64,000 nt of DNA from Paratinospora sagittata. Taxonomy: Eukaryota; Streptophyta; Magnoliopsida; Ranunculales; Menispermaceae. A program made the translations under genes and the position numbers. The stretch is taken from positions 10,288,501 through 10,352,500 of the forward strand of contig CM069607.1 in the NCBI GenBank assembly GCA_035771175.1, given 5' to 3'. Position 1 is the stretch's first letter; each line of letters begins with the position of its first letter. Below the pieces are notes generated by a model. It searched no databases. It had not been told where the DNA came from and saw nothing but the letters and a program-made list of their open reading frames with translations. This document shows, piece by piece, positions 2,648 to 48,800 of this stretch.

Positions 2648-2659
2648 TGGTATCAGAGC
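2648..2659 (+). other. Primer binding site, tRNA-iMet type (E2)
   Basis: TGGTATCAGAGC lies seven bases after the LTR end. This is the standard plant LTR-retrotransposon site complementary to the 3' end of initiator methionine tRNA. It proves that the LTR at 1839-2640 is a 5' LTR, not the 3' LTR of E1. Confidence 0.93.
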
Positions 2660-2916: not shown

Positions 2917-4304
2917 ATGGAGCAAAGATCAAGGAAGAACGTTGAAGGGAAAAGTTCTCAGCCTCCTTGTTCCAGATCCTTCCCTTCAATTCCAATCCAT
3001 ACGGGAAGACTGGTAGTTCTACTTGATGCATACTACCCTATGCTCCATGACAAACTTACAGCCTTAGGTTGGGCACCAATCATTGATATTGAAAGGTGCA
3101 TTTTTCGGTCTTCTGTTATCTCATTTTACCAAAATTTGACCTTCACAAATCAAGATACTTTCACCATCACTACAAAAGTGAATGGTGTTGATATCACCCT
3201 CACACCTGCAATATTATCTAAAATGTTAGAAATTCCTGAAAAGGGACCACTTTGTAATATTTACACGACCAGAGGCAGGTTAAGTGCTATCCCAAACTCT
3301 CGACACATGTTTAGGTGTCTTACTTCTCAGACTGAGTACCTGGTTACTAGGATCAAGACAAGTGACATTAAAGAGCCGTATAATCCTCTCATGCAAGTGA
3401 TCATGTCAAACATTTTACCCCAACCTGGAAAAAGATCTACTACCACACACCCTCAATGCTTTTTGGCATACTGTTTGATAAAGGAAATTCATGTAAAACT
3501 TCCTTATATCATTTTGCATCACATGGCATACTGTACTCGGGAACAAAAGTGTCTTCCATATGGAGCACTATTAAACAAAGTGTTCCGTCGTTTCGGAGTT
3601 TTTCCTAGCCCCACCGAGATAACATCTCCCTTGTACGGTGACATCACCGTTAAGTATGGTAAACTCTAGTGGACCCAAGGAAAGTCATGCAGTTAAAAGG
3701 CGAGGAAATAGGCCATCAGAGTGGGAGGATTTTCTTGACATAGGGGAATACACTTCTCCAGAAGACCTTGAGGATTTTAACCTTGATTTTTTTGATATTC
3801 CGAAAAATGAGACGGACCTTCCTAGGGAAGAATACGTTTCTCCATCCACAACACAAGAAACCACTACTGGTACAACAACTTGTGGATCAAATGCGAGAAA
3901 TGATATTGGCAACCGATGAGTGAATAAGGAAAGATATGAGAGATTAGTTTGAAGGACAAAATCCTAGCCTCAGAGAACATCAAGTGGCTATTGACTCACT
4001 GTTGAAGTGGCGTGAAGAATGCTACGCCACACTACCACGTATCGCTCCTTCGGTTTTAGGTGAGAGAGACTTTGGACAATCGTCCCAACAGGCACAAGAT
4101 TCGTCGGTGAATCTTAACCTCAACATTGGGACCTCTCCGTTTCCTAACTCAGCATTTGCTGGGCAAGTTCTGGAAACTCCTTTATACTTTCCTAGCATGG
4201 AACAATCAGTATCTCAATTCTCAACTGAAAATTTTAATTTTGATCTTGCACCTCCTCAATTGTTTTCTCATAGCAAGTATGTGTTTAAATTTTTAGTAGT
4301 CTAA
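2917..4304 (+). pseudogene. E2 ORF1: accessory protein upstream of gag (Transposase_32-like)
   Basis: A 250-residue open frame (2917-3669) begins after a short 5' UTR with an acceptor-like TTTCATTTTTAG ending at 2878. Residues about 40-230 match ORF1 of E4: LHDKLTALGW, SFYQNL, a VNGVDITLTP-type strand, LPYIILHHM and LPYGALLNKVF line up in order. I relate this to the plant domain known as putative plant transposon protein (PF20167, Transposase_32); that is from memory of the family, not a search. The frame then shifts to 3638-3919 (acidic, Asp/Glu/Thr-rich, with a KRRGNRPSEW stretch) and again to 3984-4304, so one protein of about 450 residues has taken two frameshifts. Its role is unknown. 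Position between PBS and gag is unusual for Ty3 elements. Confidence 0.72.
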
Positions 4305-5238
4305 CGTAGTTTCGTAATAGGTTGAAATAGTTTGAAGTTAGTATCTATATCTTGGTAGTAGTTGGATAGTTTGTAAACTTTTGTTAAAAAAAAAAAAAAA
4401 AAAAAACTTCATGCCGAATTTTCGGCTCATTATAATCGTTATGTGATGTTGTGTGCTAGACTATCTGTGGTAGGCCCACTCGTCTAGTGAGTTTCTTCAC
4501 TATTAATGAGTTTGACATGGTATGGGACACAACAAACTCACACAAATACTGATGAAAACGCGAGACGAGGTAACCTATGGATCTGTTGTGTAGTAGTTCA
4601 TGGCGGAAGTCTGACTTACCATTAGTATCGTCACGTTCACATGGTATGGGACGTGAGAACTTGATGGATAGTAGTGGTAGACGGTTTTCCACTAGAATCT
4701 GCAAAAGACCTCACACAGATCCCCTTGACTGAACCACGTCCCTTATCACCAAATTCATGCGGAATGGGACGTATGAATTTGGATGATAATAGGAATCGTC
4801 AGGTCTTGGTGATAGGTGGGCATAGTATAACAAGTGCAAGGGAATTACGACATATAGCTATAGGTGACAACACGAGGAAAAGGTTGCGGAAATATCTGTG
4901 GCATGTGCTGGTATTCAACAATGTACCTATTCTCACAAATACACAAGAAATTATTTTTAAACGCAGTTTAAAAACGCAAATACTACTATACTAGGTTTTA
5001 AACACATTACAAAGCACACTTTTGGTTTTGCTTTCAGGCCAACCTAAAAAGTACAACGCCACGGTGCTCTAAGGCTCCTCATTTTCCCCTATTACCTAGC
5101 CTAGAAAAGTAGGAGGTTAAAACCTATGATATGTCACTCAAGAACTTTGCATGTGCACTGCATCACGAATCAATCCTCCTGACGTTTTCAGAATTTATGA
5201 TGCACATTTTGTGCTAATAGCAAGTAATCCTGCAGATA
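4305..5238 (+). other. E2 ORF1-gag spacer
   Basis: Non-coding spacer of the element. It holds an A-run at 4386-4406 (possibly a poly(A) remnant), the stem-loop array at 4456-4782, and an acceptor-like CCTGCAG ending at 5235, three bases before the gag ATG. Short open frames here are not conserved in the equivalent spacers at 40157-40936 and 44079-44569. Confidence 0.65.
4456..4782 (+). repeat. Stem-loop array, four units (E2)
   Basis: Unit 0: CTAGAC/GTCTAG arms (4456-4461, 4482-4487) around GGTAGGCCCAC. Unit 1: perfect 8-bp arms TGAGTTTG/CAAACTCA (4507-4514, 4533-4540) around GGTATGGGAC. Unit 2: GTTCAC/GTG-AG-AAC (4635-4660, two-base bulge) around GGTATGGGAC. Unit 3: perfect 10-bp arms CCAAATTCAT/ATGAATTTGG (4749-4758, 4773-4782) around GGAATGGGAC. 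The loop motifs start at 4469, 4519, 4643 and 4761. The arms differ between units while the loop is kept, which argues for selection on structure rather than simple tandem duplication. Function unknown; a packaging, dimerisation or Gag/ORF1-binding signal is plausible by position. Confidence 0.75.
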
Positions 5239-5979
5239 ATGCCGGTACAGACAAGAAGACAGCACGACCCTAGCTCCTCTCGGCAAGCGTCTGTATTCAT
5301 ACAGCCGCAAGAGAACGTTGGATCTAAACCTACTCCCCCTACACCAGAACAAGCAATGGAAGACAACGGGAATGCCTCGACAGCCGAACAAACTGCTGCA
5401 GCTCCTTCCAATGGTGTAGCCGTACCATTTGGCATGAAGAAATTCTTCCAAAGCTTTACTGAGTACATGAAGGCGTCAATGAGAGGTTCAGTCCAGAGCG
5501 TTGCTGATCAGCAAATTGCGGTCCCCCAGTCGCAAGTAGCACCAGCTAAGCAGAAGATGAACCAGATGACCAATCAAATTACAAATTACCAACGACTACA
5601 ACCCATCACTTTTGATGGGAAGACTGACTTCGATGAAGCCTACAAGTGGCTCGAAGTAACACATAAGGTACTTGAGGCAATGAGAGCGTCCGACAAAAGA
5701 AAGATTCCTCTTGCCGTATACCAGTTGGTGGGAAACGCCAAGTCCTGGTGGAAAACAGTTAAGGAAGACCCTCGAATAAACTCCAGTACCATGACATGGC
5801 AACAATTTGAAACTGAATTCATCAGTGAGTATTTTCCCAATTCTGTCAAGAGGAAGAAGAGGCTGGAATTCGCAAGACTCTACCAAGGAAATATGACTAC
5901 AACCAAAGGCTACTCCTGTTATAATTCGGGTATCCACTCCAATAGGAGCGGGTACAAAAATAAATCAAATATGTTATAA
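5239..5979 (+). pseudogene. E2 gag (capsid), truncated by internal deletion
   Basis: Retrotransposon gag polyprotein. It begins MPVQTRRQ, has a Pro/Gln/Ala-rich N-terminus (residues about 10-60), then the capsid domain (about 110-215) with the family pattern LQPITFDG, EAYKWLE, YQLVGNAKSWW and WQQFETEFISEYFP. Soon after KRLEFARLYQGNMT the sequence jumps to a remnant of the zinc knuckle (ICYNC near 5970), so most of the RNA-binding region and the protease N-terminus were deleted. The start is the first ATG after an acceptor-like TGCAG at 5231-5235. It is homologous to gag of E4 and E5 but clearly diverged from them, so E2 belongs to a different subfamily. Confidence 0.85.
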
Positions 5980-23555: not shown

Positions 23556-26500
23556 TGTGGCAACCCCGCACCCTGGACCACCAACCCCGCAAGGAATGGT
23601 GTGCGGAATGCCGGGGCGGGACGCCTGACGTAGGCATCTCCAATCACTTTTCAACCTTCGTGAGGTGGTTGAGACCCTACGAGCCTTATCCGAAACAACG
23701 ACATAATATAAAAAGGTACTAAACAAAACTACCAACCGTATTAATCATCCAAGACAAGAGATACTCCATAAAAATGAACCATAAATAAAACCGTCATAAT
23801 CCCTAAAGTCCATCAAGATTGACATACACATAAAGTCCAAAACTATGGGTACAAAAAAACCCTCATATGCCCACATGGTCTATCTAAGAAGTCTCAACTC
23901 ACCCATACTACAATGTGGTAAGTATTATAATTACATAGTCCAAAATATAATACATCATAATTTCAAACACAATTCAATCAAAATGCCTGTCAACTCACAT
24001 CGAGGCCTTGGATTCTCTCGCAGGCAAGGCCCTCAAGATATGACTATTCCTTTGCCCTTATTCGGGACAGAAGGACCTGAAAGAGGAAAATGAGGGTGAG
24101 CCAACGGTGCCCAGTGAATAGAATTCAAATATGCTATCAATACTCATCAATAAATATCATGTATGCATGTCAATGTGTAGCATGATTAAAAGCTCATAAC
24201 ATATAGATATCAAGCATTTATAATAAGTTCGATGCAAGTAAAAGCTTATCAATTTTGATCCACATTCCACATGCATTGGGGTTACTAGTGCACGTCTATT
24301 TCACCATACCGTTCTCATCCCCAAATATTTTCTTTTTAAAACCCTCCTATGACAAGGTTAAGTCCCCCTATTAGCCAGATAGATGGGCCCAACCAAAGTC
24401 ATAAGGTTTTCTCAAATCAATGCATCATTCAAAACATTAGAACACATTCATGCTTTCAACATACAATATATATAAGTGATATGATGACATAAAATATATA
24501 ATCATAAATGAAGTCTACTCACAACCAAGCCTCGCGAGAGTATCTAACCACACACGGACACCAAACCGAATCAATCCAATCAAGGTCCTGAAACATTCAT
24601 CAATATCCAACCATACATCAATTTCTATGCTCAATCACATAGACATTACACATCAACCCTAAATCAACCCACATATAGACAATAGGCCTAAATCCCATCT
24701 AATCCCACCATTCAACTCAAATCACATAACTTAGGCCTCTAATGCATAGTTCTCATTCATAAACTATTCTATTATTCAAAAATACTGATTTTCAATTCCT
24801 TAGGCATAAACATGCTTAAATTGGGCCATTTGATCACAAGTAGGCATAACCCATGATATGGTCACAACCACTAAATCAGTAGCATAATCAACCCTAATCA
24901 TGCTTAATTAAACATAAGTTGCATCAATTCAATGATTCTAGGCCAAAAGCATCAAAAGCCCTAAAATATGAGATTTTCCATACTTAGGCCATATTGCCGA
25001 TTTACACTAGGTCACCATGTTCAGCCATGTATATCACTGATTTTTCATCATGGGTTCATCAACAATGGCAACTAGGTCAACATAGTTGACATGCAAGCTA
25101 TTTGGAAAGGTCTAAGTTCATATTCTAAATTTAGGTCTAACACAAGCAACCCTACCAATTCTTCATTTAATATTCTGTTCAGATGTATCAATCTACCAAC
25201 AGAAATATTTAATCACAAAATCAACCGTACAGATTGAAGTATGTTAAGAACCAAACCTTCTGTACAAAACTCAGCTCAATCCAAAGGTGGACCGGGAAGA
25301 TAATCGACTTTGATGAACAAGTCTCTAATCAGATAATTTCTCCTTTCCTGCTGCAAATACTCAAACGCAGATGCCTATATCACACAACATACCTAAGGCA
25401 TAAACATCTCCACCGTTCCTAATCTATACAGATCCGTTTTAAACCACATACCAAAATATCATATCCATCCAACGGTAGAGTTAGGAGATCTATTAGTTTG
25501 ATCAAAACTGCGCGAGAAATCCATACTTTCCGACCAACTTTGTTTGAGAGGTTATATCACTTAGACGAAAACTCTAATCAAGATCTCCACCGACCAGAAT
25601 GAATAACCATACGCTATGAACGTTCTGACATATTTTGAGCTCAATCGGACCATATATCCTCAAGATCCCATCTCTTTGATGAAAACATTGCAGAGATTTT
25701 CCTCAAAGCAACTCCCTCTTTCTTTCTCTTCTTCTTTCCTTTGTCTTCTTTTTTTCCTTTCTCTCTACTCATCTCACCCTCTAAGACTTCCTTGGGGAAG
25801 AGAAGTAGGGCATGAGACACTTGTCCACTCTCATGCACCAACTTAGACATGTGTTGGAGAGGAGAAATGGGGCATGGGACACTTGTCAATTTTCATGCAC
25901 CAACTTGACATGTGTTGGAGAAGAGAAATGGGGCATGGAACACTTGTCCATTCTCATGCACCAACTTGACATGTGCTGGTCTCATGCACCAACTTAACAT
26001 GTGTTGGAGAAGAGAAATGGGGCATGAGACACTTGTCCATTTTCATGCACCAACTTGACATGTATTGGAGAAGAGAAATGGGGCATGAGACACTTATCCA
26101 TTCTTATGCACCAACTTGACATGTGTTGGTCTCATGCACCAACTTGACATGAGTTGGAGAAAAGAAATGGGGAATGGGACACTTGTCCATTCTCATGCAC
26201 CAACTTGACATGTGTTGGTCTCATACTACCCATACCAACCACATGTACTTTAACCAATCTCATGCTCCCATGTATTTTAAATGTCCAATCCATTTAATAC
26301 ACCAAATCTTCATTTTCATTTATCCTTTTATTCAATCAATCCTAACACATATCAATTCATGGTTTAAGGGGCCCATGCATAAATAATAGCATATGCATTA
26401 TACTTTAATTTAACATGACCCATATACAATTTATGATGCACATATTTATATACATTATCAAGCATCAAATATACAAACATTAAACAACCATCAAACAAAC

Positions 26501-37675: not shown

Positions 37676-37687
37676 TGGTATCAGAGC
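37676..37687 (+). other. Primer binding site, tRNA-iMet type (E4)
   Basis: TGGTATCAGAGC lies five bases after the LTR end, identical to the E2 site. Confidence 0.94.
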
Positions 37688-37734: not shown

Positions 37735-37761
37735 TTTCATTATATATATATATATCTTTAG

Positions 37762-37800
<39 letters not shown>

Positions 37801-38436
37801 TTATATATAGTTAAGATTTGTATTAAATATATATCTAAAGAAAACTATATAGTTTTATATAGTTTAGAAATATATATATAGTTACGATTAATGAAAACTA
37901 TATATACTGTTATGATTAAATATATATATATATATATCTATGCAGATAGGAGATATATATATATATACCATGTTGATAATGAAAAATTTTGAATGAAAAA
38001 TGTTATTAGATATATATATCCCTAGAACTATATATATATGTCAATTATATATAGTGAGATTTATATTAAATATATATCTAGAAAACTATATGATTTTTTA
38101 TATAGTTTGATTTAAATATACATATAGTCATGATTTATTAAAAACTATATGTATAGTTATGATTAAATATATATATCTATATACCTTAGTATATATGAGA
38201 TATATATATCATATTATTGATGAAAAATTTGAATGAAAAATGTTATTAGATATATATATCTCTAGAACTATATATATATGTCAATTATATATAGTGAGAT
38301 TTATATTAAATATATATCTAGAAAACTATATGATTTTTTATATAGTTTGATTTAAATATACATATAGTCATGATTTATTAAAAACTATATGTATAGTTAT
38401 GATTGAATATATATATCTATATACCTTAGTATATAT

Positions 38437-38483
<47 letters not shown>

Positions 38484-38745
38484 TATTATTGATGGAAAAA
38501 TTTGAATGAAAAATATTATTAGATTTATATATCTTTACAACTATATATATATATGAATTATATATAGTTAAGATTTGTATTAAATATATATCTAAGAAAA
38601 CTATATATGATTTTTATATAGTTTAAATTTTAAATATATATATAGTTGATTTACGAAAACTACATATACAGTTATGATTAAATATATATATCTATACATT
38701 CATATATGTATACGATATATATATATATATATTGCTAAGGAAGAA
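37735..38745 (+). repeat. Leader tandem repeats of about 240 bp, four copies, very AT-rich
   Basis: The marker CTAGAACTATATATATATG occurs at 38022 and 38262, exactly 240 bp apart, with nearly identical sequence between. Diverged first and fourth units have related markers at about 37757 and 38534. Each unit ends in a variable (TA)n. The array lies between PBS and ORF1; E2 has only about 260 bp there and no repeats. Confidence 0.88.
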
Positions 38746-38877
38746 TTTTGATTTTCATGATGGCATAAACATCAAGAGAAAAATAGAAAATACTGTTTAA
38801 AAGACAAAGAATAAATCTTAAAAATGTTAGAAATATATTTTGTGTCTTTCACAAATTTATTTTCCTTTCAGCAAAGA

Positions 38878-40156
38878 ATGGCCTCAAGTGAAGGAACAAC
38901 TTCCAGTAGTAGGGAACCAATTCCCACTAGACTCAAGGAATTGTTCAAGAGGGAGGTTATGGCTATGAAGAACATCGACAATAGAGATTTCCGCCTCCGC
39001 CCAGTCCTTCACGACAAACTCGCAACTCTGAGTTGGTTGAATATAACAAAAGTTGAGGGTCACGTCTCTTACAGCTTGGTGAGATCTTTCTACGAAGCCA
39101 TAAATCGCGTGGGACTTCCAGAAGAGGGAATCAGCCCTGTATTGGAGACAACGGTCATGGGGATAAAAATTCCTATCAACGTCGAAATCATCGCTCGACT
39201 TATGGAGATTTCGATTGAGGAGAGAATTATTGATCCACATGAACCCCAGACAATTACAGAGATCGCGAAGTCTAATGACCAATTATTCAATTCCCTCACC
39301 AAGGAGCCATACAGTCAATCGACGTTCACCAACCTCCCAAACAATTATCTTAAGCCATATCTTGCCGGCCTTGGAAAGATCGTGTTCGGCAACATCTTGC
39401 TAGAAAGGGGGGCTAATGGCACTATGTCAAGGGCCCAACTTCTCGTGTTATATTGCATAGAGAAGGAAATAAAGGTCTCCCTACCACACATCATCATCCA
39501 ACAAATGTTGAGGGTGATTCAAAACCCTTTAAGAAAGGAATTCCTCGGTTATGGAGTCTTGATCATGAGGATGCTATACGAAGCAAACATCAACACTTTT
39601 GATGGGACTTCGAGACAAATCATTGAGCCAGTTACAACATCTTCTATCTTCAAGATATATGTCTCGAGGGGAGGGGTAACTGACGAGGAAGTACTCGGCA
39701 CGACGATAGGAAATGCCGAGAGAATGAGAGACAAAAATGGACGTTGTCTTCGAAGAAGTCGACTCAAGATTCCTGTCAGGGAAGTACCAAATAACGGGAC
39801 AAACCAAATAACGGGACAAACCAAAATCCTACGTCAAATGCCCAAGGGGTTCCAGTTAGGGGATCCCGTACAATCGAAACAACTACCCTTCACCTATGAG
39901 TCACCTGTACAACCAATACTTTCCCCTAATGCCTGCAGCCTATCAACCACCAATAGGCCAATCGACTAACCTATTTGAACGGTTAAATGAAATGACATCC
40001 AATACGGCGGAAATGAGAGAGACTCAAAATAATATATTAACACGTATGCAAAACTCCGAAGCAGAGCGAGCAAACTCTCAACCTTCCGTTAGTAGTCGTT
40101 CTGTACCTAGCAGGAGATCTAGAAGGAGCGGTAGTAGGAAGGAAAATCAAGATTGA
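38878..40156 (+). pseudogene. E4 ORF1: accessory protein upstream of gag (Transposase_32-like)
   Basis: The ATG at 38878 is seven bases after TTTCCTTTCAG. An open frame of 363 codons runs to 39969: MASSEGTTSSSREPIPTRLK, RPVLHDKLATLSW, VSYSLVRSFYEAI, MGIKIPINVEIIARLMEIS, KPYLAGLGKIVFGNILLERG, SLPHIIIQQM and SSIFKIYVSRGGVTDEEV. This is the putative plant transposon protein type of domain (about residues 40-280). A deletion of about 300 bp compared with E5 (near 39835) shifts the frame. The C-terminus continues at 39896-40156 with a coiled-coil-like stretch (LFERLNEMTSNTAEMRETQN) and a basic Ser/Arg tail (SRSVPSRRSRRSGSRKENQD). The tail suggests nucleic-acid binding or nuclear targeting. Function unknown. 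Confidence 0.75.
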
Positions 40157-40936
40157 TTACAGGCATTGTAAACTATTTTTTTATAGATGAATGAAATGTT
40201 TTCTTTAAGACTATCTTTGGTGGGCCGACTTACAACCATTCTTTTTTTTGTATCACTAACTTTGGTGTGGTATGAGACACAACAAAATTGGAGGATACTA
40301 AATAAAATGTGGAAGTAAGAAAACCCACGACCTTGTGTGAAAAGAAACATTTGGAGAAAGTTGCATTACTAACATTATCACTAAGTTTACACGGTATGGG
40401 ACAAGTAAACTTGGAAGATAGTATTGGTGAACTACTATTTAGTCGATGTTTTTAGAGACCGTGTTCATACAACTTAACTTGGTTAACACCCTTATTACCA
40501 AAGTCATGTGGTATGGGACACATGAACTTGAATAACAATCGAAAAGACTAAAGAGTAAGAGTTTGAATGCATAAGATTGCGATAGAACGTTAGATCATGA
40601 TATTTACCGAGGCAAATCTTAGAATTCTTATGACTCGTATGGATTTTCAATGAAATATATATGTATGTTCACAAAGACCAAAACCAAATCATTTGAAATA
40701 CTTGCAAAGTTTTATACTTATTATGTAAACATTCTAACCTTGTTTTTACACCATGGCGAAACATACGAGGCACATAAAATTCTTTGATTCCTCAACAAAA
40801 GCCTTACACTATACTTAGAAAAATAGGTGATTTTAATATTGCAGTACTCTCGAAATTGTTGCTGAGCAAACTATAACATTATACTTGGCTACAGTTCCTA
40901 AATCTTGGTTTTATTTCTCTCATTGCCAGTGAGAAA
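40157..40936 (+). other. E4 ORF1-gag spacer
   Basis: Non-coding. It holds the stem-loop array (40207-40530) and ends in a good polypyrimidine tract and acceptor (TTTTATTTCTCTCATTGCCAG, AG at 40928-40929), eight bases before the gag ATG. It is similar in the E5 spacer (44079-44569). Confidence 0.7.
40207..40530 (+). repeat. Stem-loop array, four units (E4)
   Basis: The loop motifs GGTGGGCCGAC, GGTATGAGACAC, GGTATGGGACAA and GGTATGGGACAC begin at 40219, 40269, 40393 and 40510. Arms: unit 1 TTTGGTGT/ACAC-AA-CAAA (40261-40286); unit 2 perfect AAGTTTAC/GTAAACTT (40383-40390, 40405-40412); unit 3 CATGTG/CACATG extended by AAGT/A-A-CTT (40501-40529). Unit 0 has lost its arms. Spacings 50, 124 and 117 match those in E2 (50, 124, 118). 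The C-G pair in unit 2 of E2 (GTTCAC) is a T-A pair here (GTTTAC), a compensatory change. Confidence 0.78.
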
Positions 40937-42275
40937 ATGCAAACCAGGAAGAGAGGATGGCCACGTACTGTCCAGCAGTGGAGGCACCTCCTGAGATTCA
41001 GGAACCCCCGCCTCCGACGACAGCACGAGTCATACCCGATACTGCCACTACATCTGGATGGGAAATACCACCACCACCCGCACCCTTTGCCATGCCTCCG
41101 AGCATGGAAACCTTCTTCGCCGAATTTATTGAGGTGATGAAAGTCACTGTTCAAACGACCGTTCGTGAGACTGCGGCCAGTCAAGTTACCACGGTTCAGG
41201 CACCTGTAAGATTTGGGTCGGAATCTCAAACCGATCAGATTACTAAGTACAAGAGGTTACAACCTTTTACTTTTGCTGGCACCATTGAGGCTGATGAGGT
41301 GCAAAAGTGGCTGGATGAGTCAAAGAAGGCTCTTGATGCAATGAGAGTCGATGAGACTCAAAAAATTCCACTAGTGACCTACCAACTTGTTGGTGGGGCA
41401 AACACATGGTGGATAACAGTGAAAGAGGACCCAAGGGTCAACACAGCGGATATGACTTGGCAACAGTTCGAGTCAATGTTCATTGATGAGTATTTTCCTG
41501 GCACTGTGAAGAGGCAGAAGTGCCAGGAATTCGCTAAGTTATACCAGAGCAGTATGACTGTCAGGGAATATGCTGGAAAGTGCAAAGAATTATCAGTCTA
41601 CACTCTTTCACCATCTCAATGGAGCAAGATATGACTGAGAAATTTTATAATGGCCTTCGCCATGATATTCGACAAGCCTTGTCGATCTTGGATCTCAAGA
41701 TTTACAAGGAGGTTGTTAACAAGGCCATGAGCTTTGAACAAGAGAAGATCTTACAGGAGCAGAGAATGAATAAGGGAAAACGACCTGCAACGTTTTCCCA
41801 ACAAGGCTTGCAATAGGGTAACAAGAAGAAGCCCTACTACAATCAAAACCCAGCCCTCCTAGCCCTTGTTCCGAAGAATGAGGCCACAACACCTGCGGCT
41901 GAACCTTCTAATCTTAACCATTAGGGTTTTCGTAATCATGGCCGCGGAGGTCGTTATGGAAGGGGTGGCCGTAGAAACGGCAATGGCAGATGTGGTGGTC
42001 AACACCACAATCAGCATGGCCAGCAGAACAATCAGCATGGCCAACAAAACCATCCGCAGTATCAGCCGATGTGTTTCAACTGCGGCCAGAAGGGCCATGT
42101 AAAATATCTCTGTCCGCACCTTTAGCAACCTATTCCCGTTGTTCCAGTCCAACAAGCACCACTTGCTGCTAATGCCCAACCCAGGCAGAACCAGGGTCAA
42201 CGGAATCAGGGTAGAGCATTTGCCATCGCTCAACAACCCCTCCCAGAACACAATGTAGTCGAAGGTACCTTTCCT
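40937..42275 (+). pseudogene. E4 gag (capsid and nucleocapsid), frameshifted
   Basis: Starts MQTRKRGWPRTV. A 4-nt loss compared with E5 shifts the frame, and the body is read at about 40957-41634: Pro-rich linker, METFFAEFIE, LQPFTFAGTIEADEVQKWLD, YQLVGGANTWW and WQQFESMFIDEYFPGTVK. A second shift moves to 41580-41816 (EKFYNGLRHDIRQALSILDL). The nucleocapsid part has an RGG-like block (NHGRGGRYGRGG near 41935), QHGQQN repeats (about 42000-42050) and one CCHC zinc knuckle, CFNCGQKGHVKYLC (42072-42113). An in-frame stop is at about 41814. The domain order is the standard Ty3 gag plan. Confidence 0.87.
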
Positions 42276-43306
42276 TTGTTCAATACAATGGTGCATGTTT
42301 TGTTTGATTCAGGTGCTACGCATTCTTTTATATCGTCGGCATTGGTAAGACATTTAGGCCCGCATCCTGAACCCACAAACATCATACTCCATGTCACATC
42401 ACCGTTTGGATCTGGTACTGACGTGAATTTGCAGTGTTCTCGATGTGGGCTTCGAATGTCAGAACAGATAATATATGCAGATCTTTTTGTTATGGATATT
42501 GAAAACTTTGACATCATCCTCGGCATGGACTGGCTAGCACCACTGATTGCAAAGATCAAATGTATGAAAAAGCAAGTTCAGTTAACCCTGCCTACAGGAA
42601 AGTTGGTCAAGATTCAGGGAACAAGGAAATGGATAAACAAATCAACAGTTGCACTTCTCAAGGCACAACTTCGAGCTCTATCCCTTGGCAATGAAAATGA
42701 ATCACTAGCATTATACCCTCTCGAAGTACATGATGTTCCAGTCATATCTGAATTCCCAACAGTCTTTCTAAATGACCTTCCTGGTCTACCTCCAGTTAGG
42801 GAATTCGATTTTGAGATCAACCTCATACCTGGGACAAGGCCTATCTCAATTCCACCATACAGAATGTCAAATGTCGAGCTGGTCGAATTAGACAAACAAC
42901 TGAAGGAATTACCCTAGGCGCTCCAGTTCTGTTTGTTCGCAAAAAGGATGGTTCGTTACGACTTGACATCGACTATCCCAAGTTGAATAATGTCACCATC
43001 AAGAACATATATCCATTGCCCAAGATCGATGACTTGTTCGACCAACTTAGAGATGCCAAATACTTCTCTAAGATTGATTTACGGTCCGGTTATCACCAAC
43101 TCCAGATCCGACAGTTGGACATCACCAAAATGGCATTCAGAACTCGGTACGGTCATTACGAGTTCTTGGTTATGCCGTTCGGTCTAACAAATGCACCTGC
43201 TGCATTCATGGATTTGATGAATTGCATTTTCAGGTTATACTTAGACCTATTTGTGGTGGTTTTTGTGGATGACATCTTGATATACTCCTCAACCGAGGAA
43301 GACCAT
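42276..43306 (+). pseudogene. E4 protease and RT (5' part)
   Basis: Aspartic protease with the intact active site FDSGATHSFIS (about 42303-42335), then [15 protein letters not shown] block ([12 protein letters not shown]). The RT N-terminal linker is open in frame 3 to 42917, where a deletion of about 43 bp (compared with E5) removes the [13 protein letters not shown] segment and shifts the frame. RT continues in frame 2 from 42983 with [28 protein letters not shown] and [15 protein letters not shown]. It stops where ORF1-like sequence begins at about 43306. RNase H and integrase are absent from E4 itself. Confidence 0.88.
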
Positions 43307-43317
43307 AGAAAGGGGGA

Positions 43318-44078
43318 CTAGAGGCACTATGTCAAGGGCCCAACTTCTGGTGTTATATTGCATAGAGAAGAAAATAAAGGTCTCCCTACCACACATCATC
43401 ATCCAACAAATGTTGAGGGTGATTCAAAACCCTTTGAGAAAGGAATTCCTCAGTTATGGAGTCTTGATCATGAGGATGCTATACGAAGCAAACATCAACA
43501 CTTTTGATGGGACTTCGAAGCAGATCACTGAAATGGTTACAACATCTTCTATCTTCAAGATATATTTCACGAGGGGAGGGGTAACTGACGAGGAAGTATT
43601 CAGCGCGACGATAGGAAATGTCGAAAGAATGAGAGACGAACATGGACGTTGTCTTCGAAGAAGTTGACGCAAGATTCCTGTCAGGGAAGTACCAAATAAT
43701 GAGCCAAATCAGAATTCTACATCAAACCCAGCCCCGAATAATGATCCAACCGATAGACTATTCACTGAGGAAGAGTTATTTTCCACCCTAAATCAACCTC
43801 AAGATAGAAAAAATACTCAAGCAAATCCACCAACCTGGAACATGCCAACTCAAGGCAAGACTTCGTACCCAAGGTTTCCAACTCCTGAGGTACCGTATCG
43901 GCCAGTTCCACAAGTTGCTGTGAACCAACAACAAAAGTATTGGGCGGCACCAAATTTTGGAGGGCAAAACATCCTAATGAGCCCATTGTTTCTAAACTTT
44001 TCACCTCAAACAAATCCAAATATCCAAGGGGTTCCAGTTAGGAGATCCCCGAATAAACTTGGAAGATACTATTGGTGA
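43318..44078 (+). pseudogene. E5 ORF1, C-terminal two-thirds
   Basis: Continuous with E4 ORF1 from MSRAQLLVLYCIEKKIKVSL through SSIFKIYFTRGGVTDEEV. A single TGA at 43665-43667 (RS*RKIP) interrupts the frame. It then gives a linker that E4 has lost: REVPNNEPNQN, LFTEEELFSTLNQPQ, and a Pro/Gln/Asn-rich stretch to PNIQGVPVRRSP. After this a deletion removes the basic C-terminus and the first stem-loops, joining directly to the right half of unit 2 (AAACTTGGAAGATA, 44055-44068). Confidence 0.72.
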
Positions 44079-44180
44079 TCTACTATTTAGCCGATGTTTT
44101 TAGAGACCGTGTTTATACAACTTAACTTGGTTAACACCCTTATTATCAAATTCATGTGGTATAGGACACACGAACTTGGA
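44052..44180 (+). repeat. Stem-loop array remnant (E5)
   Basis: The right half of unit 2 (44052-44075) and unit 3 (AATTCATGTG-GTATAGGA-CACACGAACTT, 44150-44177, with one arm mismatch) remain; units 0 and 1 are deleted. The loop reads GGTATAGGAC. Confidence 0.6.
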
Positions 44181-44569
44181 TAATAATCGAAAAGGCTAAG
44201 AGTAAGAGTTTAAATACATAGGATTACGATAAAACGTTAGATCAGGATATTTTCCGAGGCAAATCTTAGAATTTTTATGACTCGTATAAATTTTCAATGA
44301 AATATATAACCAGAACCAAAACATTTGAAATACTTGCAAAGTTTTGTACTTATGATATAAACATTCTAACCTTGTTTTTTTTTACCATGGCCAAACATAC
44401 GAGGCACATAAAATTCTTTAATTCCTCAACAAAACCTTATACTATACTTAGAAAAATAAGTGATTTTAACATTGCAGTACTCTCAAAATTGTTGTTGAGC
44501 ATACTATAACATTATACTTGGCTACAGTTCCTAAATTTTGGTTTTTATTTTCTCCTTGCCAGTGAGAAA

Positions 44570-45863
44570 ATGCAAACCAGGAAGAGAGGAAGGCCACGTA
44601 CTGTCCGTCCAGCAGTGGAGGCACCTCCATGAGATTCAGGAACCGCCGCCTCCAACGACAGCACGAGTTACACCTGACACTGCCACTACATCTGGGCAGG
44701 CAATACCACCCCCACCCGCACCCTTTGCCATGCCTTCGAGCATGGAAACCTTATTCGCCGGATTTATTGAGGAGATGAAAGCCACTATTCAAAAGGTCGT
44801 TCGTGAGACCACGGCCAGTCAGGTTACCACTGTTCAGGCACCTGTAAGATTTGGATCAGAATCTCAAACCGATCAGATTACCAAGTACAAGAGGCTACAA
44901 CCTCTTAGTTTTGCTGGCACCATTGATGCTGATGAGGTGCAAAAGTGGCTGGATGAGTCAAAGAAGGCTCTTGATGCAATAAGAGTCGATGAGACTCGAA
45001 AAATTCCACTAGCGACCTACCAACTTGTTGGTGGGGCAAACACATGGTGGATAACAGTGAAAGAGGACCCAAGGGTCAACAATGTTTATTGATGAGTATT
45101 TTCTCAGCGCTGTGAAGAGGCAGAAGTGCCAGGAATTCACTAAGTTATACCAGGGCAGCATGACCGTCAGGGAATATGCTGGCAAGTTCAAAGAATTATC
45201 AGTCTACTCTCTCTCCACAATCTCAACGGAGCAAGATAAGACTGAGAAATTTTATAATGGCCTTCGCCATGATATTCGACAAGCCTTGTCGATCTTGGAT
45301 CTCAAGATTTTCAAGGAGGTTGTTGACAAGGCCATGAGCTTTGAACAAGATATGATCATATAGGAGTAGAGAATGAATAAGGAAAAACGACCTGCAACGT
45401 TTTCCCAACAGGGCAACAAGAAGAAGCCCTACTACAATCAAAACCCAGCCCTCCCAACCCCTGCGACTGAACCTTTTAACCCTAACGATTTGGGTTTATT
45501 AAATCATGGCCGCGGAGGTCGTTATGGAAGGGGTGGCTGTAGAAACGACAATGGCAGAGGTGGTGGTCGACACCACAATCAACATGGCCAGCAGAACAAT
45601 TAACATGGCCAGCAAAACCGTCTGTAGTATTAGCCGACGTGTTTCAACTGCGCCAGAATGGCCATGTAAAATATGTCTGTCCACACCTTCAGTAACCTAT
45701 TCCCGTTGTTCCAGTCCACCAAGCACCACCTGCTGCTATTGCCCAACCCAGGTAGAACCAGCAGAACCAGGTTCAACAAAATCAGGGCAGAGCATTTGCC
45801 ATCGCTCAACAACCCCTCCCAGACAACAATGTAGTCGAATGTACCTTTCCTTTGTTCAATACA
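44570..45863 (+). pseudogene. E5 gag (capsid and nucleocapsid)
   Basis: The ATG at 44570 follows TTTTCTCCTTGCCAG by seven bases. It starts MQTRKRGRPRTVRPAVEAPP, then a TGA. The capsid body reads METLFAGFIEEMKATIQKVV, LQPLSFAGTIDADEVQKWLD and YQLVGGANTWW. A deletion of about 32 bp near 45083 removes WQQFES and shifts the frame to 45082-45363 (MFIDEYFLSAVK, KFYNGLRHDIRQALSILDL). Then TAG stops, an RGG-like stretch (GRGGRYGRGGCRNDNGRGGG), and a decayed zinc knuckle (FNC-QNGHVKYVC near 45645-45675). Same plan as E4 gag; not functional. Confidence 0.85.
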
Positions 45864-48800
45864 ATGGTGCATGTTTTGTTTGATTCAGGTGCTACGCATT
45901 TTTTTATATCGTCGGCATTGGTAAGACATTTAGGCCTGTAGCCTGAACCCACAAACATCACACTCCATGTCACATCACCGTTCGAATCTGGTATTGACGC
46001 GAATTTGCAGTGTTCTCAATGTGAGCTTCGAATGTCAGAACAAATAATATATGCAGATCTTTTCGTGATGGACATTGAAGACTTTGACATCATCCTCGGC
46101 ATGGACTGGCTAGCACCACTGAATGCAAAGATCGAATGTATGAAGAAGCAAGTTCAGTTAACCTTGCCTGCAAGAGAGTTTGTCAAGATTCAGGGAACAA
46201 GAAAATGGATACACAAATCAACAGTTGCACTTCTCAAGGCACAACTTCGAGCTCTATCCCTTAGTGAAGAAAATGAATCACCAACATTGTACCCTCTCGA
46301 AGCACACGATGTCCCTGTAATATCGAAATTCCCAACAATTTTTCTAAATGACCTTCTTGGTCTACCGCCTGTTCGAGAATTTGATTTTGAAATCAACCTC
46401 ATACCTGGGACAGGGCCTATCTCAATTCCACCATACATAATGTCAAATGTCGAGCTGGTCGAATTAAACAAACAACTGAAGGAATTAGAGAGTAATGGCT
46501 TCATCAGAAAGAGTTCATCACCTTGGGGCGCTCCAGTTCTGTTTGTTCGCAAAAAGGATGCTTCGTTACGACTTTGCATCGACTATTGCAAGTTGAATAA
46601 CGTCACCATCAAGAATAGATATCCATTGCCCAGGATCGATGACTTGTTCGACCAACTTTGAGATGCCAAATACTTCTCTAAGATTGATTTACGGTCCAGT
46701 TATCACCAACTCCAGATCCGAGAGTCGGACATTACCAAGACGGCGTTCAGAACTCGGTACGGTCACTATGAGTTCTTGGTCATGCCGTTCGGTCTAACAA
46801 ATGCACTTGTTGCATTCATGGATTTGATGAATCACATTTTTAGGTTATACTTAGACCGATTTGTGGTAGTTTTTGTGGACGATATCTTGATATATTCCTC
46901 AACTGAGGAAGACCATATGATACATCTAAAGATAGTCCTCTAGACCTTGAAAAGCCACCAGCTATAAGCAAAGTTGAGTAAGTGTGAATTTTGGGCGAAG
47001 CGAGTTCAATTCCTAGGCCGTGTGGTTTCAGCCAATGGCATTGAGGTAGATTCTTCTAAGGTTGAAGCAGTTCTAAACTGGAAGCAGCCTACCACTGTTA
47101 CTCAGATTAGGAGTTTTCTTGGTTTGGCTGGCTATTACAAACGCTTCATCAAGGACTTCTCAAAGATTGCTGAACGTATGACCCAGCTCACTAGAAAAGA
47201 CATGTGATTCATCTGGAATCCCGCCTGTGAAACATCATTTCAGGAATTGAAGAAACGCCTCACGATAACACCTGTACTTATCACTCCAAGAAATGCAATT
47301 GGATTTTCATTATATACCGACGCCTCTCTCCAATGCTTTGGTCCCGTACTAATGCAAGAAGGCCAAGTTGTTGCATATGCCTTGAGGCAACTGAAGATTC
47401 ATGAGGGTAATTACCCAACACATGACTTGGAACTTGCAACTGTTGTGTTTGCACTGAAATTATGGCGTCATTACCTATACGGTGAACAGTTCGAGGTCTT
47501 CTCAGATCACAAGAGTCTTAAGTATATATACACTCAGAGAGACCTAAACCTCCGCCAAAGACGATGGTTGGAATTCTTGAAAGATTATGACTTTCAACTC
47601 CAGTACCATCCCGGAAAGGCCAATGTTGTGGCGGATGCCCTGAGTAGAAAATTGAATGTTGCTTGCACCCATAACTTCGAAATGGGGAAGTTGACTACAG
47701 AGATAGAGAACTTTAACCTCCAATTGATCGAAGAGGGACCAAGATCACGACTCTCTCAATTATCAACCAACTCTGAGCTAGTTCGAAAGATTTCAGTTGC
47801 CCAAGCCAAAGACCCTATGTTAATGGAGAAACGATAACTTCTACTCAGCAGACAGGACCTTCCTCACTAGTCGGTCTAAGAAGACGGAACCGTTTTCTAT
47901 AAAAAAAATGCCTCTGTCTACCGAACGATCCTGAGGTTCGGAAAGAAGTGCTCACTGAGATGCACTGTTCGAGGTTCGCTATGCATCCTGGGGGTGACAA
48001 GATGTACAAGGATGTCAAGCAACAATTCTGGTTGTTTGGAATGAAGAAGGCAATTGCAGACTTCGTTGCTCGATGTCTCGTTTGCCAGAAAGTTAAGGCA
48101 GAACGAAGACTTCCCTCTGGACTTCTCCAGCCGTTACCTATTGAAGAATGGAAGTGGGAGAACATCGCAATGGATTTTGTTACGGCCTTGCCTCAAAATA
48201 ATAAAAGGCAAGATGCTATATGGGTTATCATTGACAGACTTACAAAGTCTGCACACTTTCTGCCAATAAAGTTCACGGATAACCGCGCCAAACTTGCATA
48301 ACTATATGAAAGAGAGATCGTACACCTTCATGGCATACCACTCACGATCGTCTCTGATCGAGACCCTCGATTCACATCAAACTTTTGGAAAAGCTTCTAG
48401 AGTAGAATGGGTTCTAAAATCACCATGAGCACAACCTTTCATCCTCAGACTGATGGGCAGTCAGAGCGTCTTATCCAAATCTTAGAAGACATGTTACAAT
48501 GTTGCATTTTGGACTTTAATGACGGATGGGCAAAATATTTACATTTAGTTGAGTTTGCATACAACAACAGCTACCAAACTAGTATCGGCATGGCACCATA
48601 CAAGGCTCTCTATGGTCGGCCCTGCAGATCTCCGGTATACTGGTTAGATATGGCAGATAGACCGCAGTTGGGCCCTGAACTAGTTCAAGAGACTTCTGAG
48701 AAGATAACACTAGTAAATGAACGACTTCGTGTTGCACAAAGTCGATAGAAGAGCTATGCTGACAAGCGGAGACAACATCTAGAATTTAATAAGGGGGACT

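Follow-up and report, generated by a model that had tools for sequence, protein, structure and literature searches.

A conserved array of long hairpins upstream of gag in Ty3-type retrotransposons of Paratinospora sagittata: a structure under selection and a possible signal of genomic RNA

In retroviruses, the packaging signal (Psi) comprises several hairpins in the leader upstream of gag, as in DIS-2, SL-C and SL-D of Moloney murine leukaemia virus (MoMuLV) and in the leader of human immunodeficiency virus type 1 (HIV-1). Guanosines are the nucleocapsid contacts there, those of HIV-1 lying in the loops of leader hairpins, and MoMuLV nucleocapsid bound tightly only when all three stem-loops were present (excerpted account of PMC7599994). 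Among long terminal repeat (LTR) retrotransposons, Ty1 has a structured cis-acting RNA at its 5' end, with a pseudoknot near the primer-binding site (PBS) and a palindromic dimer interface, and musD RNA has a structured element, the musD transport element (MTE); the excerpt of PMC5767303 that describes them mentions no array of repeated loops for Ty1. The Tekay elements of sunflower and grasses are chromoviruses with an additional open reading frame (ORF) 5' of gag (PMC11728184, in excerpt), and neither "stem-loop" nor "hairpin" occurs in the main text of that paper. Here we describe an array of long hairpins in two Ty3-type elements, E2 and E4, which are among several such elements in a window of 64,000 nt (the whole stretch of DNA analysed; positions 10288501-10352500 of C19) from the 1.29-Gb genome of Paratinospora sagittata. 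Little is known about the means by which LTR retrotransposons of plants mark their genomic RNA. The array resembles retroviral Psi in placing several hairpins before gag; it differs in consisting of two or three long hairpins that present one identical, non-palindromic 10-nt loop at spacings of 109-127 nt, in being preceded by an extra ORF in many copies, and in that its binding by Gag is only a proposal.

The loops start at 4519, 4643 and 4761 in E2 and at 40269, 40393 and 40510 in E4, and each is within one change of the decamer GGTATGGGAC. A first-pass annotation of the window had listed these six loops as part of a four-unit array with spacings of 50/124/118 (E2) and 50/124/117 (E4). The six loops and the spacings between them stand, whereas the additional starts at 4469 (GGTAGGCCCAC) and 40219 (GGTGGGCCGAC) proved to be part of the basal helix of hairpin 2, leaving three units; a third group of elements, F3, has no loop at that place. 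Nine decamer matches with at most one mismatch are present in the window, compared with 2.2 expected, and none of 100 shuffles reached nine. Six of them are the array loops of E2 and E4, one (44158) belongs to a truncated duplicate of the E4 spacer, and two (25871 and 26171) lie inside an unrelated 61/28-bp tandem repeat. In the whole genome GGTATGGGAC occurs 18,318 times (8953 + 9365), compared with 596 (292 + 304) for the reversed word. In addition, a pattern for a hairpin flanked by TATC and GATA, which misses most E4-like copies, gave 676 genome matches (357 + 319), compared with none (0 + 0) for its reversed control. A chance origin is ruled out by the decamer excess, the hairpin pattern against its control, and the arm-swap tests described below.

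Conservation within the loop was counted in 164 unit copies pre-selected at no more than two changes, a selection that flattens the position counts and should favour no single position. Positions 4 and 9 were invariant; positions 5, 6 and 8 were altered in 1-3 copies (A, T and G at positions 4-6 in 164, 163 and 161, respectively; position 8 constant in 162), and positions 1, 2, 3 and 10 in 5-10, with a purine at position 1 in 161. Position 7 was the most variable, with G in 142 copies and an alteration in 22, of which 18 were G to A. Across the eight groups of elements in which we found the array, the consensus loop is GGUAUGRGAC, with R mostly G.

Folding gave successive long hairpins in all three groups first examined, with lengths of 87-144 nt in E2 and 109-126 nt in E4, the two elements in which they were measured (Table 1). 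In E2 the successive hairpins abut exactly, which accounts for the loop spacing. The inner plan is common to the units: the 10-nt loop, a closing pair, a small internal loop in some units and about 8-10 pairs, followed by a one-versus-two-nucleotide asymmetry and then by TATC/GATA or a paired variant. The arms had been given in the first-pass annotation as 8-10 bp long; they actually reach more than 50 nt to each side of the loop, and they differ between groups and between units with pairing kept. At the base of hairpin 2, for example, the helix reads GTAGG/CCTAT in E2 (outermost pair 4470/4578), GTGGG/CCCAC in E4 (outermost pair 40220/40328) and GTTAG/CTAGC in F3. The sense-strand minimum free energy (MFE) was below that of shuffles in all ten chosen arrays (z -2.5 to -7.5; 40 shuffles each) and, in a separate run with wider flanks, in seven of seven (z -2.6 to -6.1; 30 shuffles each); another folding run gave z -5.6 for the E2 array. 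When the whole E4 array was folded, hairpin 3 shrank to 40366-40430 and the hairpin 4 region paired differently. In the consensus fold of E4-group unit 2, a U-rich left flank pairs with the loop itself and beats the hairpin. No window match above the curated threshold was obtained among 4227 Rfam families.

The pairing of the arms was analysed by permuting right arms among 21 group-by-unit representatives (50,000 permutations). With their own partners the inner arms, next to the loop, gave -255.5 kcal/mol, compared with a permuted mean of -121.8 (standard deviation 13.3; z -10.0), and the outer arms, which lie 23-52 nt away from it, gave -353.4 compared with -195.7 (standard deviation 14.5; z -10.9); no permutation reached either value (0/50,000 in both). 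Controls in which the centre was shifted by -60, +60, -45 and +45 nt had z values of +0.6, +0.4, -0.8 and -0.5, and the wrong-side control for the outer arms had z -0.2. Similar values came from an earlier run in which F7 was represented by another copy (-251.8 compared with -121.5; 0/100,000); there, 10 of the 21 representatives had their own right arm in first place and 19 had it within the top five. When arms were swapped between the same units of E2, E4 and F3, the own arrangement was the best of 216. Since such swaps keep all conserved letters, the pairing excess must stem from matched changes in the two arms. The signal was weaker when alignment columns were compared statistically for 100 distinct units of a single type (effective number 23.5): model pairs made up 5 of the 15 highest-ranking left-right column pairs (hypergeometric p 3e-4), and the other 10 were not model pairs. 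Together, these data strongly support the view that the array is a nucleic-acid structure under selection, as the first-pass annotation had suspected, with a conserved loop and co-changing arms in several element groups.

Copies elsewhere in the genome were studied in 57 clusters obtained from the first 100 decamer places among the matches listed, all on C1, and in 20 loci taken by eye for diversity from 100 hairpin-pattern places among the matches listed. At least two linked loops were found in 37 of the 57 C1 loci; with the two window arrays this makes 39 arrays, 35 of which have three loops. A gag match lies downstream in 35 of the 37 linked loci, the exceptions being L043 and L056. Within this genome the array is therefore not confined to a few related copies, the outcome named at the outset as speaking against selection, since the decamers and hairpin-pattern matches are far too numerous.

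By eye, and by similarity of gag or arms, the copies were placed in eight groups (E2, E4, F3, F4, F5, F6, F7 and F8), each with two or three loops 109-127 nt apart. F5 and F6 are represented by one locus each, and the groups are partly non-independent, as F6 resembles F7 (68% over 533 nt) and F8 resembles E4. Loop spacings are 115-125/118 in the E2 group, mostly 124/117-118 in E4 (range 120-124/116-120), 117/117 in F3, 127/119 in F5, 121-122/109-117 in F8, 118 in F6, 118-119 in F7 (two units found) and 120-122 in the two-unit F4. The loop is unchanged across considerable divergence of the coding regions: the reverse transcriptase (RT) is 71% (E4) and 66% (F3) identical to that of E2 over 420 residues, and F3 gag is only 32-38% like that of E2 or E4 over the matched parts (L021, L032 and L068). 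Many array copies are decayed. Within the stretches fetched, no gag match was found for F6 or for most F4 and F7 copies, and no RT for F5 (L097) and F7 (L095).

The other 20 C1 loci had no linked second loop. L023 and L042 are truncated arrays, and L027 and L048, which are similar to one another, carry, by eye, the 61-bp tandem repeat with GGTATGGGAC in its unit. The window copy of this repeat (61/28 bp; 25786-26235) carries GGCATGGGAC words, is unrelated to the hairpins and inflates the decamer counts. L040 has a lone GGTATGGGAC at about position 1100 with arms that pair at 18 of 20 positions, and neither a gag match nor a second loop was found there; its hairpin is possibly a further group or an unrelated inverted repeat. 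The remaining 15 loci hold sequences of other kinds, and five of these loci fall into two small repeat sets (L020/L029/L055 and L052/L053).

Wherever gag was found it lies downstream of the array. The array stands between PBS and gag, directly in F3 (L021, L032 and L068) and F8 (L091 and L092), and with ORF1 between PBS and array in E2 and E4. In the three F3 copies, L023 being truncated, the PBS is 224-282 nt before the hairpin 2 loop, a distance that leaves no room for ORF1, which is thus absent. L091 and L092 (89-91% alike) retain the PBS and the array with only an apparent ORF1 tail by eye; L090 and L093, also of F8, match ORF1, as do many E4-like copies. These F3 and F8 copies indicate that the array persists through amplification without ORF1, and a necessary link to ORF1 is weakened.

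All five F4 copies keep at least two loops and are mostly 83-89% alike, with one stretch at 76%. Four have no gag match in the fetched stretch, and the fifth (L081) has a weak one (25-27%), which follows a second PBS. The group may be non-autonomous, or its copies may simply have decayed. In about 4 kb beyond L078 there was no candidate second LTR, and gag and ORF1 matches were found there on the opposite strand. An RT 71% like that of E2 near L081 was not assigned to F4, as it sits after the second PBS (L081 position 2624). In L079 the whole two-hairpin array is duplicated in tandem (1125-1642; 92% over 262 nt), giving four loops at spacings of 122/134/122.

Searches beyond this genome gave no counterpart. 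Among the matches listed, a literature search by title found no such array described and a search with the decamer found nothing on plant elements. The E2 RT search and the RT/RNase H alignment gave no relatives among viral contigs, and no relative of E4 ORF1 was found in the protein set. The two-loop pattern had 8 matches elsewhere, none matching window proteins, and the hairpin pattern had 20 viral and 9 prokaryote matches, in which no more than 2-6 of the 10 inner-arm positions are paired.

Our best guess, which we put forward tentatively, is that the array is a cis-acting signal of the genomic RNA and that it serves packaging by Gag. We propose this because the array lies between PBS and gag, is kept without ORF1 and repeats a G-bearing loop, because the Gag region of E4 has a CCHC knuckle, and because a splice-like AG precedes gag. 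By eye, the AG at 5234-5235 in E2, TTGCCAG ending at 40929 in E4 and a sequence before gag in F3 resemble 3' splice sites, as do sequences before ORF1 in E2 and E4. Full-length sense RNA would carry the array as a cis-acting element and would offer two or three copies of the loop, set a fixed distance apart, to a partner with several binding sites. Most likely this partner would be the element's own Gag, with the zinc knuckle of its nucleocapsid binding unpaired guanosines. Splicing at the apparent 3' site before gag in E2, E4 and F3 would remove the array from gag mRNA, and the unspliced genomic RNA, with the array retained, would enter packaging.

It is also quite possible, although we would not yet favour it over its negation, that the array represents an RNA family not described so far. 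In the genomic RNA of plant Ty3 chromoviruses it would be a docking platform of valency two or three, on which adjacent long hairpins offer one near-invariant decamer loop to Gag or to the anticodon loop of the primer tRNA, and the RNA would thereby be chosen to be packaged and reverse transcribed. Thousands of copies with a repeated loop provide a precise target for finding the binding partner. In addition, the array is a marker with which such elements can be found and classified, and it could be used to examine whether retaining it is what lets defective elements move.

Several observations weigh against packaging by Gag through a structured RNA. All groups come from one plant genome, and the CCHC motif was not found in the gag regions of E2 or E4b, perhaps as a result of decay. 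Some retroviruses dimerise through a self-complementary loop; the loop word GGUAUGGGAC has, on inspection, no palindrome of at least 4, so that dimerisation through loop-loop contacts is not to be expected, whereas in MoMuLV the nucleocapsid bound only if dimerisation took place (PMC7599994, in excerpt). Poor folds were obtained for two units taken alone, unit 2 of E2 (z -1.6) and unit 4 of E4 (z -0.7), and in the swap test the own arm ranked only 9th (F5 unit 3) and 15th (F7 y) of 21. No 3' LTR was found for F4, a candidate non-autonomous group. The strand evidence favours neither RNA nor DNA: one-sided wobble and A.C changes number 14:14 (shared) and 13:11 (singleton), the sense z is stronger than the antisense z in six of ten arrays and weaker in four, and the antisense z is itself -2.1 to -7.8. 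An early within-family polarity count of 46 G-U versus 11 A-C one-sided departures was dropped, as the unit 2 consensus fold on which it drew used the alternative loop pairing.

The position of the array upstream of gag would also suit control of gag translation, with the array as an internal entry or shunt structure or with the AUG of the loop as an upstream start codon. A purine and a G around an AUG are favourable for initiation, and the near-invariant AUG at loop positions 4-6 has a purine at position 1 and G at position 7. Upstream AUGs, however, do not need long paired arms, loop positions 8 and 9 (162 and 164 of 164) equal the AUG in constancy, and the frames from the loop AUGs of the 21 representatives run for 6-76 codons with no shared length or peptide. 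We consider this explanation unlikely.

The apparent 3' splice sites before gag (E2, E4 and F3) and before ORF1 (E2 and E4) would fit a role in nuclear export of unspliced RNA, in which a host export factor would bind the repeated loops and the array would act like the musD MTE or a retroviral constitutive transport element or Rev response element (CTE/RRE). The musD MTE and the HIV-1 RRE are structured and serve the export of unspliced RNA (PMC5767303, in excerpt). Against this, splicing is only putative here, and the F3 leader is short, with no intron demonstrated in it, so that we regard an export role as rather improbable.

Capture of the primer, in which the loop bases UAUGGG would pair with the anticodon loop CCCAUAA of initiator tRNA-Met and recruit it for the PBS, would have six contiguous complementary bases, and HIV-1 has a comparable anticodon-loop contact. 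The PBS word TGGTATCAGAGC, which we take to be of the initiator tRNA-Met type, is exact in E2, E4, F3 (L021, L032 and L068) and F8 (L091 and L092); a stretch of the initiator tRNA gene whose end falls within the anticodon loop has 15 exact genome copies, and ARAGORN predicts tRNA-Met(cat) at both loci scanned. This match was noticed post hoc, and about 1 in 400 random decamers match the 7-nt loop equally well and about 1 in 12 match the tRNA somewhere. Position 7, which would take part in the pairing, is the most variable of the loop (22/164 altered), and in E2 hairpin 4 the U of the loop is replaced by A. We regard primer capture as very doubtful. Similarly doubtful is a silencing decoy or dicing substrate, a role proposed for pararetroviral leaders, in which the hairpins would yield small RNAs or titrate silencing factors: long imperfect hairpins at high copy number would suit it, but it gives no reason for the loop, rather than the arms, to be repeated and to keep its sequence. 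Least probable of all is an element acting in the integrated DNA, as a cruciform or protein site, for although the changes lack a sense-strand wobble bias and antisense folds also beat shuffles, the sense fold is better in 13 of the 21 units (worse in 7) and far stronger in those arrays of F3, F4 and F7 that were folded (e.g., -119 versus -61 kcal/mol in L068), and these sense folds contain G-U pairs (25 and 28 in F3, 12 in F4 and 18 in F7) that are ill-suited to a cruciform.

Table 1. Array hairpins and landmarks of their host elements, in window coordinates.
Feature	Position	Strand	Basis or remark
E2 primer-binding site TGGTATCAGAGC	2648..2659	+	word match
E2 ORF1, first intact stretch	2917..3669	+	Pfam Transposase_32, E 2.2e-19
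E2 hairpin 2, 109 nt, 35 MFE pairs	4470..4578	+	fold; inner 56 nt alone z -1.6
E2 hairpin 2 loop GGTATGGGAC	4519..4528	+	word match
E2 hairpin 3, 144 nt, 53 MFE pairs	4579..4722	+	fold; inner 64 nt z -3.6
E2 hairpin 3 loop GGTATGGGAC	4643..4652	+	word match
E2 hairpin 4, 87 nt, 29 MFE pairs	4723..4809	+	fold; inner 62 nt z -5.3
E2 hairpin 4 loop GGAATGGGAC	4761..4770	+	word match
E2 gag frame, first ATG 5239	5221..5979	+	frame and domain search
E4 primer-binding site TGGTATCAGAGC	37676..37687	+	word match
E4 ORF1 frame	38815..39969	+	Pfam Transposase_32, E 7e-15
E4 hairpin 2, 109 nt, loop 40269-40278 GGTATGAGAC	40220..40328	+	fold; inner 59 nt z -3.5
E4 hairpin 3, 126 nt folded alone, loop 40393-40402	40335..40460	+	inner 65 nt z -4.1
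E4 hairpin 4, 110 nt folded alone, loop 40510-40519	40461..40570	+	inner 61 nt z -0.7
E4 gag frame, ATG 40937	40933..41634	+	frame and domain search
E4b hairpin 4 remnant, loop GGTATAGGAC at 44158	44130..44185 (limits approximate)	+	truncated duplicate of E4 spacer

The order in E2 and E4 is PBS, ORF1, non-coding spacer, gag and pol, and the domain search found the Ty3-type order of protease, RT, RNase H and integrase in the host elements. A Tekay label for them is plausible; the integrase chromodomain of E4 was matched by Chromo with E 0.0092 and 16.3 bits, under the cut-off of 25.1. ORF1 of E2 and E4 matches Transposase_32, whereas the additional ORF of sunflower Tekay is described as having no known domain, and Transposase_32 is reported for an Athila ORF (excerpt of PMC11728184). 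E4 also holds a second partial copy consisting of the ORF1 end, spacer, gag, protease and RT start (39401-43216 versus 43306-46826), with an offset of about 3.6-3.9 kb and 90-94% identity in the repeat pairs listed; a related element is here duplicated, either in tandem or by nesting. Between the PBS and ORF1 of E4 (37740-38880) there are AT-rich repeats, among them a direct repeat of 227 nt at a distance of 240 nt, and these are followed, before the ORF1 ATG, by CCTTTCAG, which resembles a 3' splice site.
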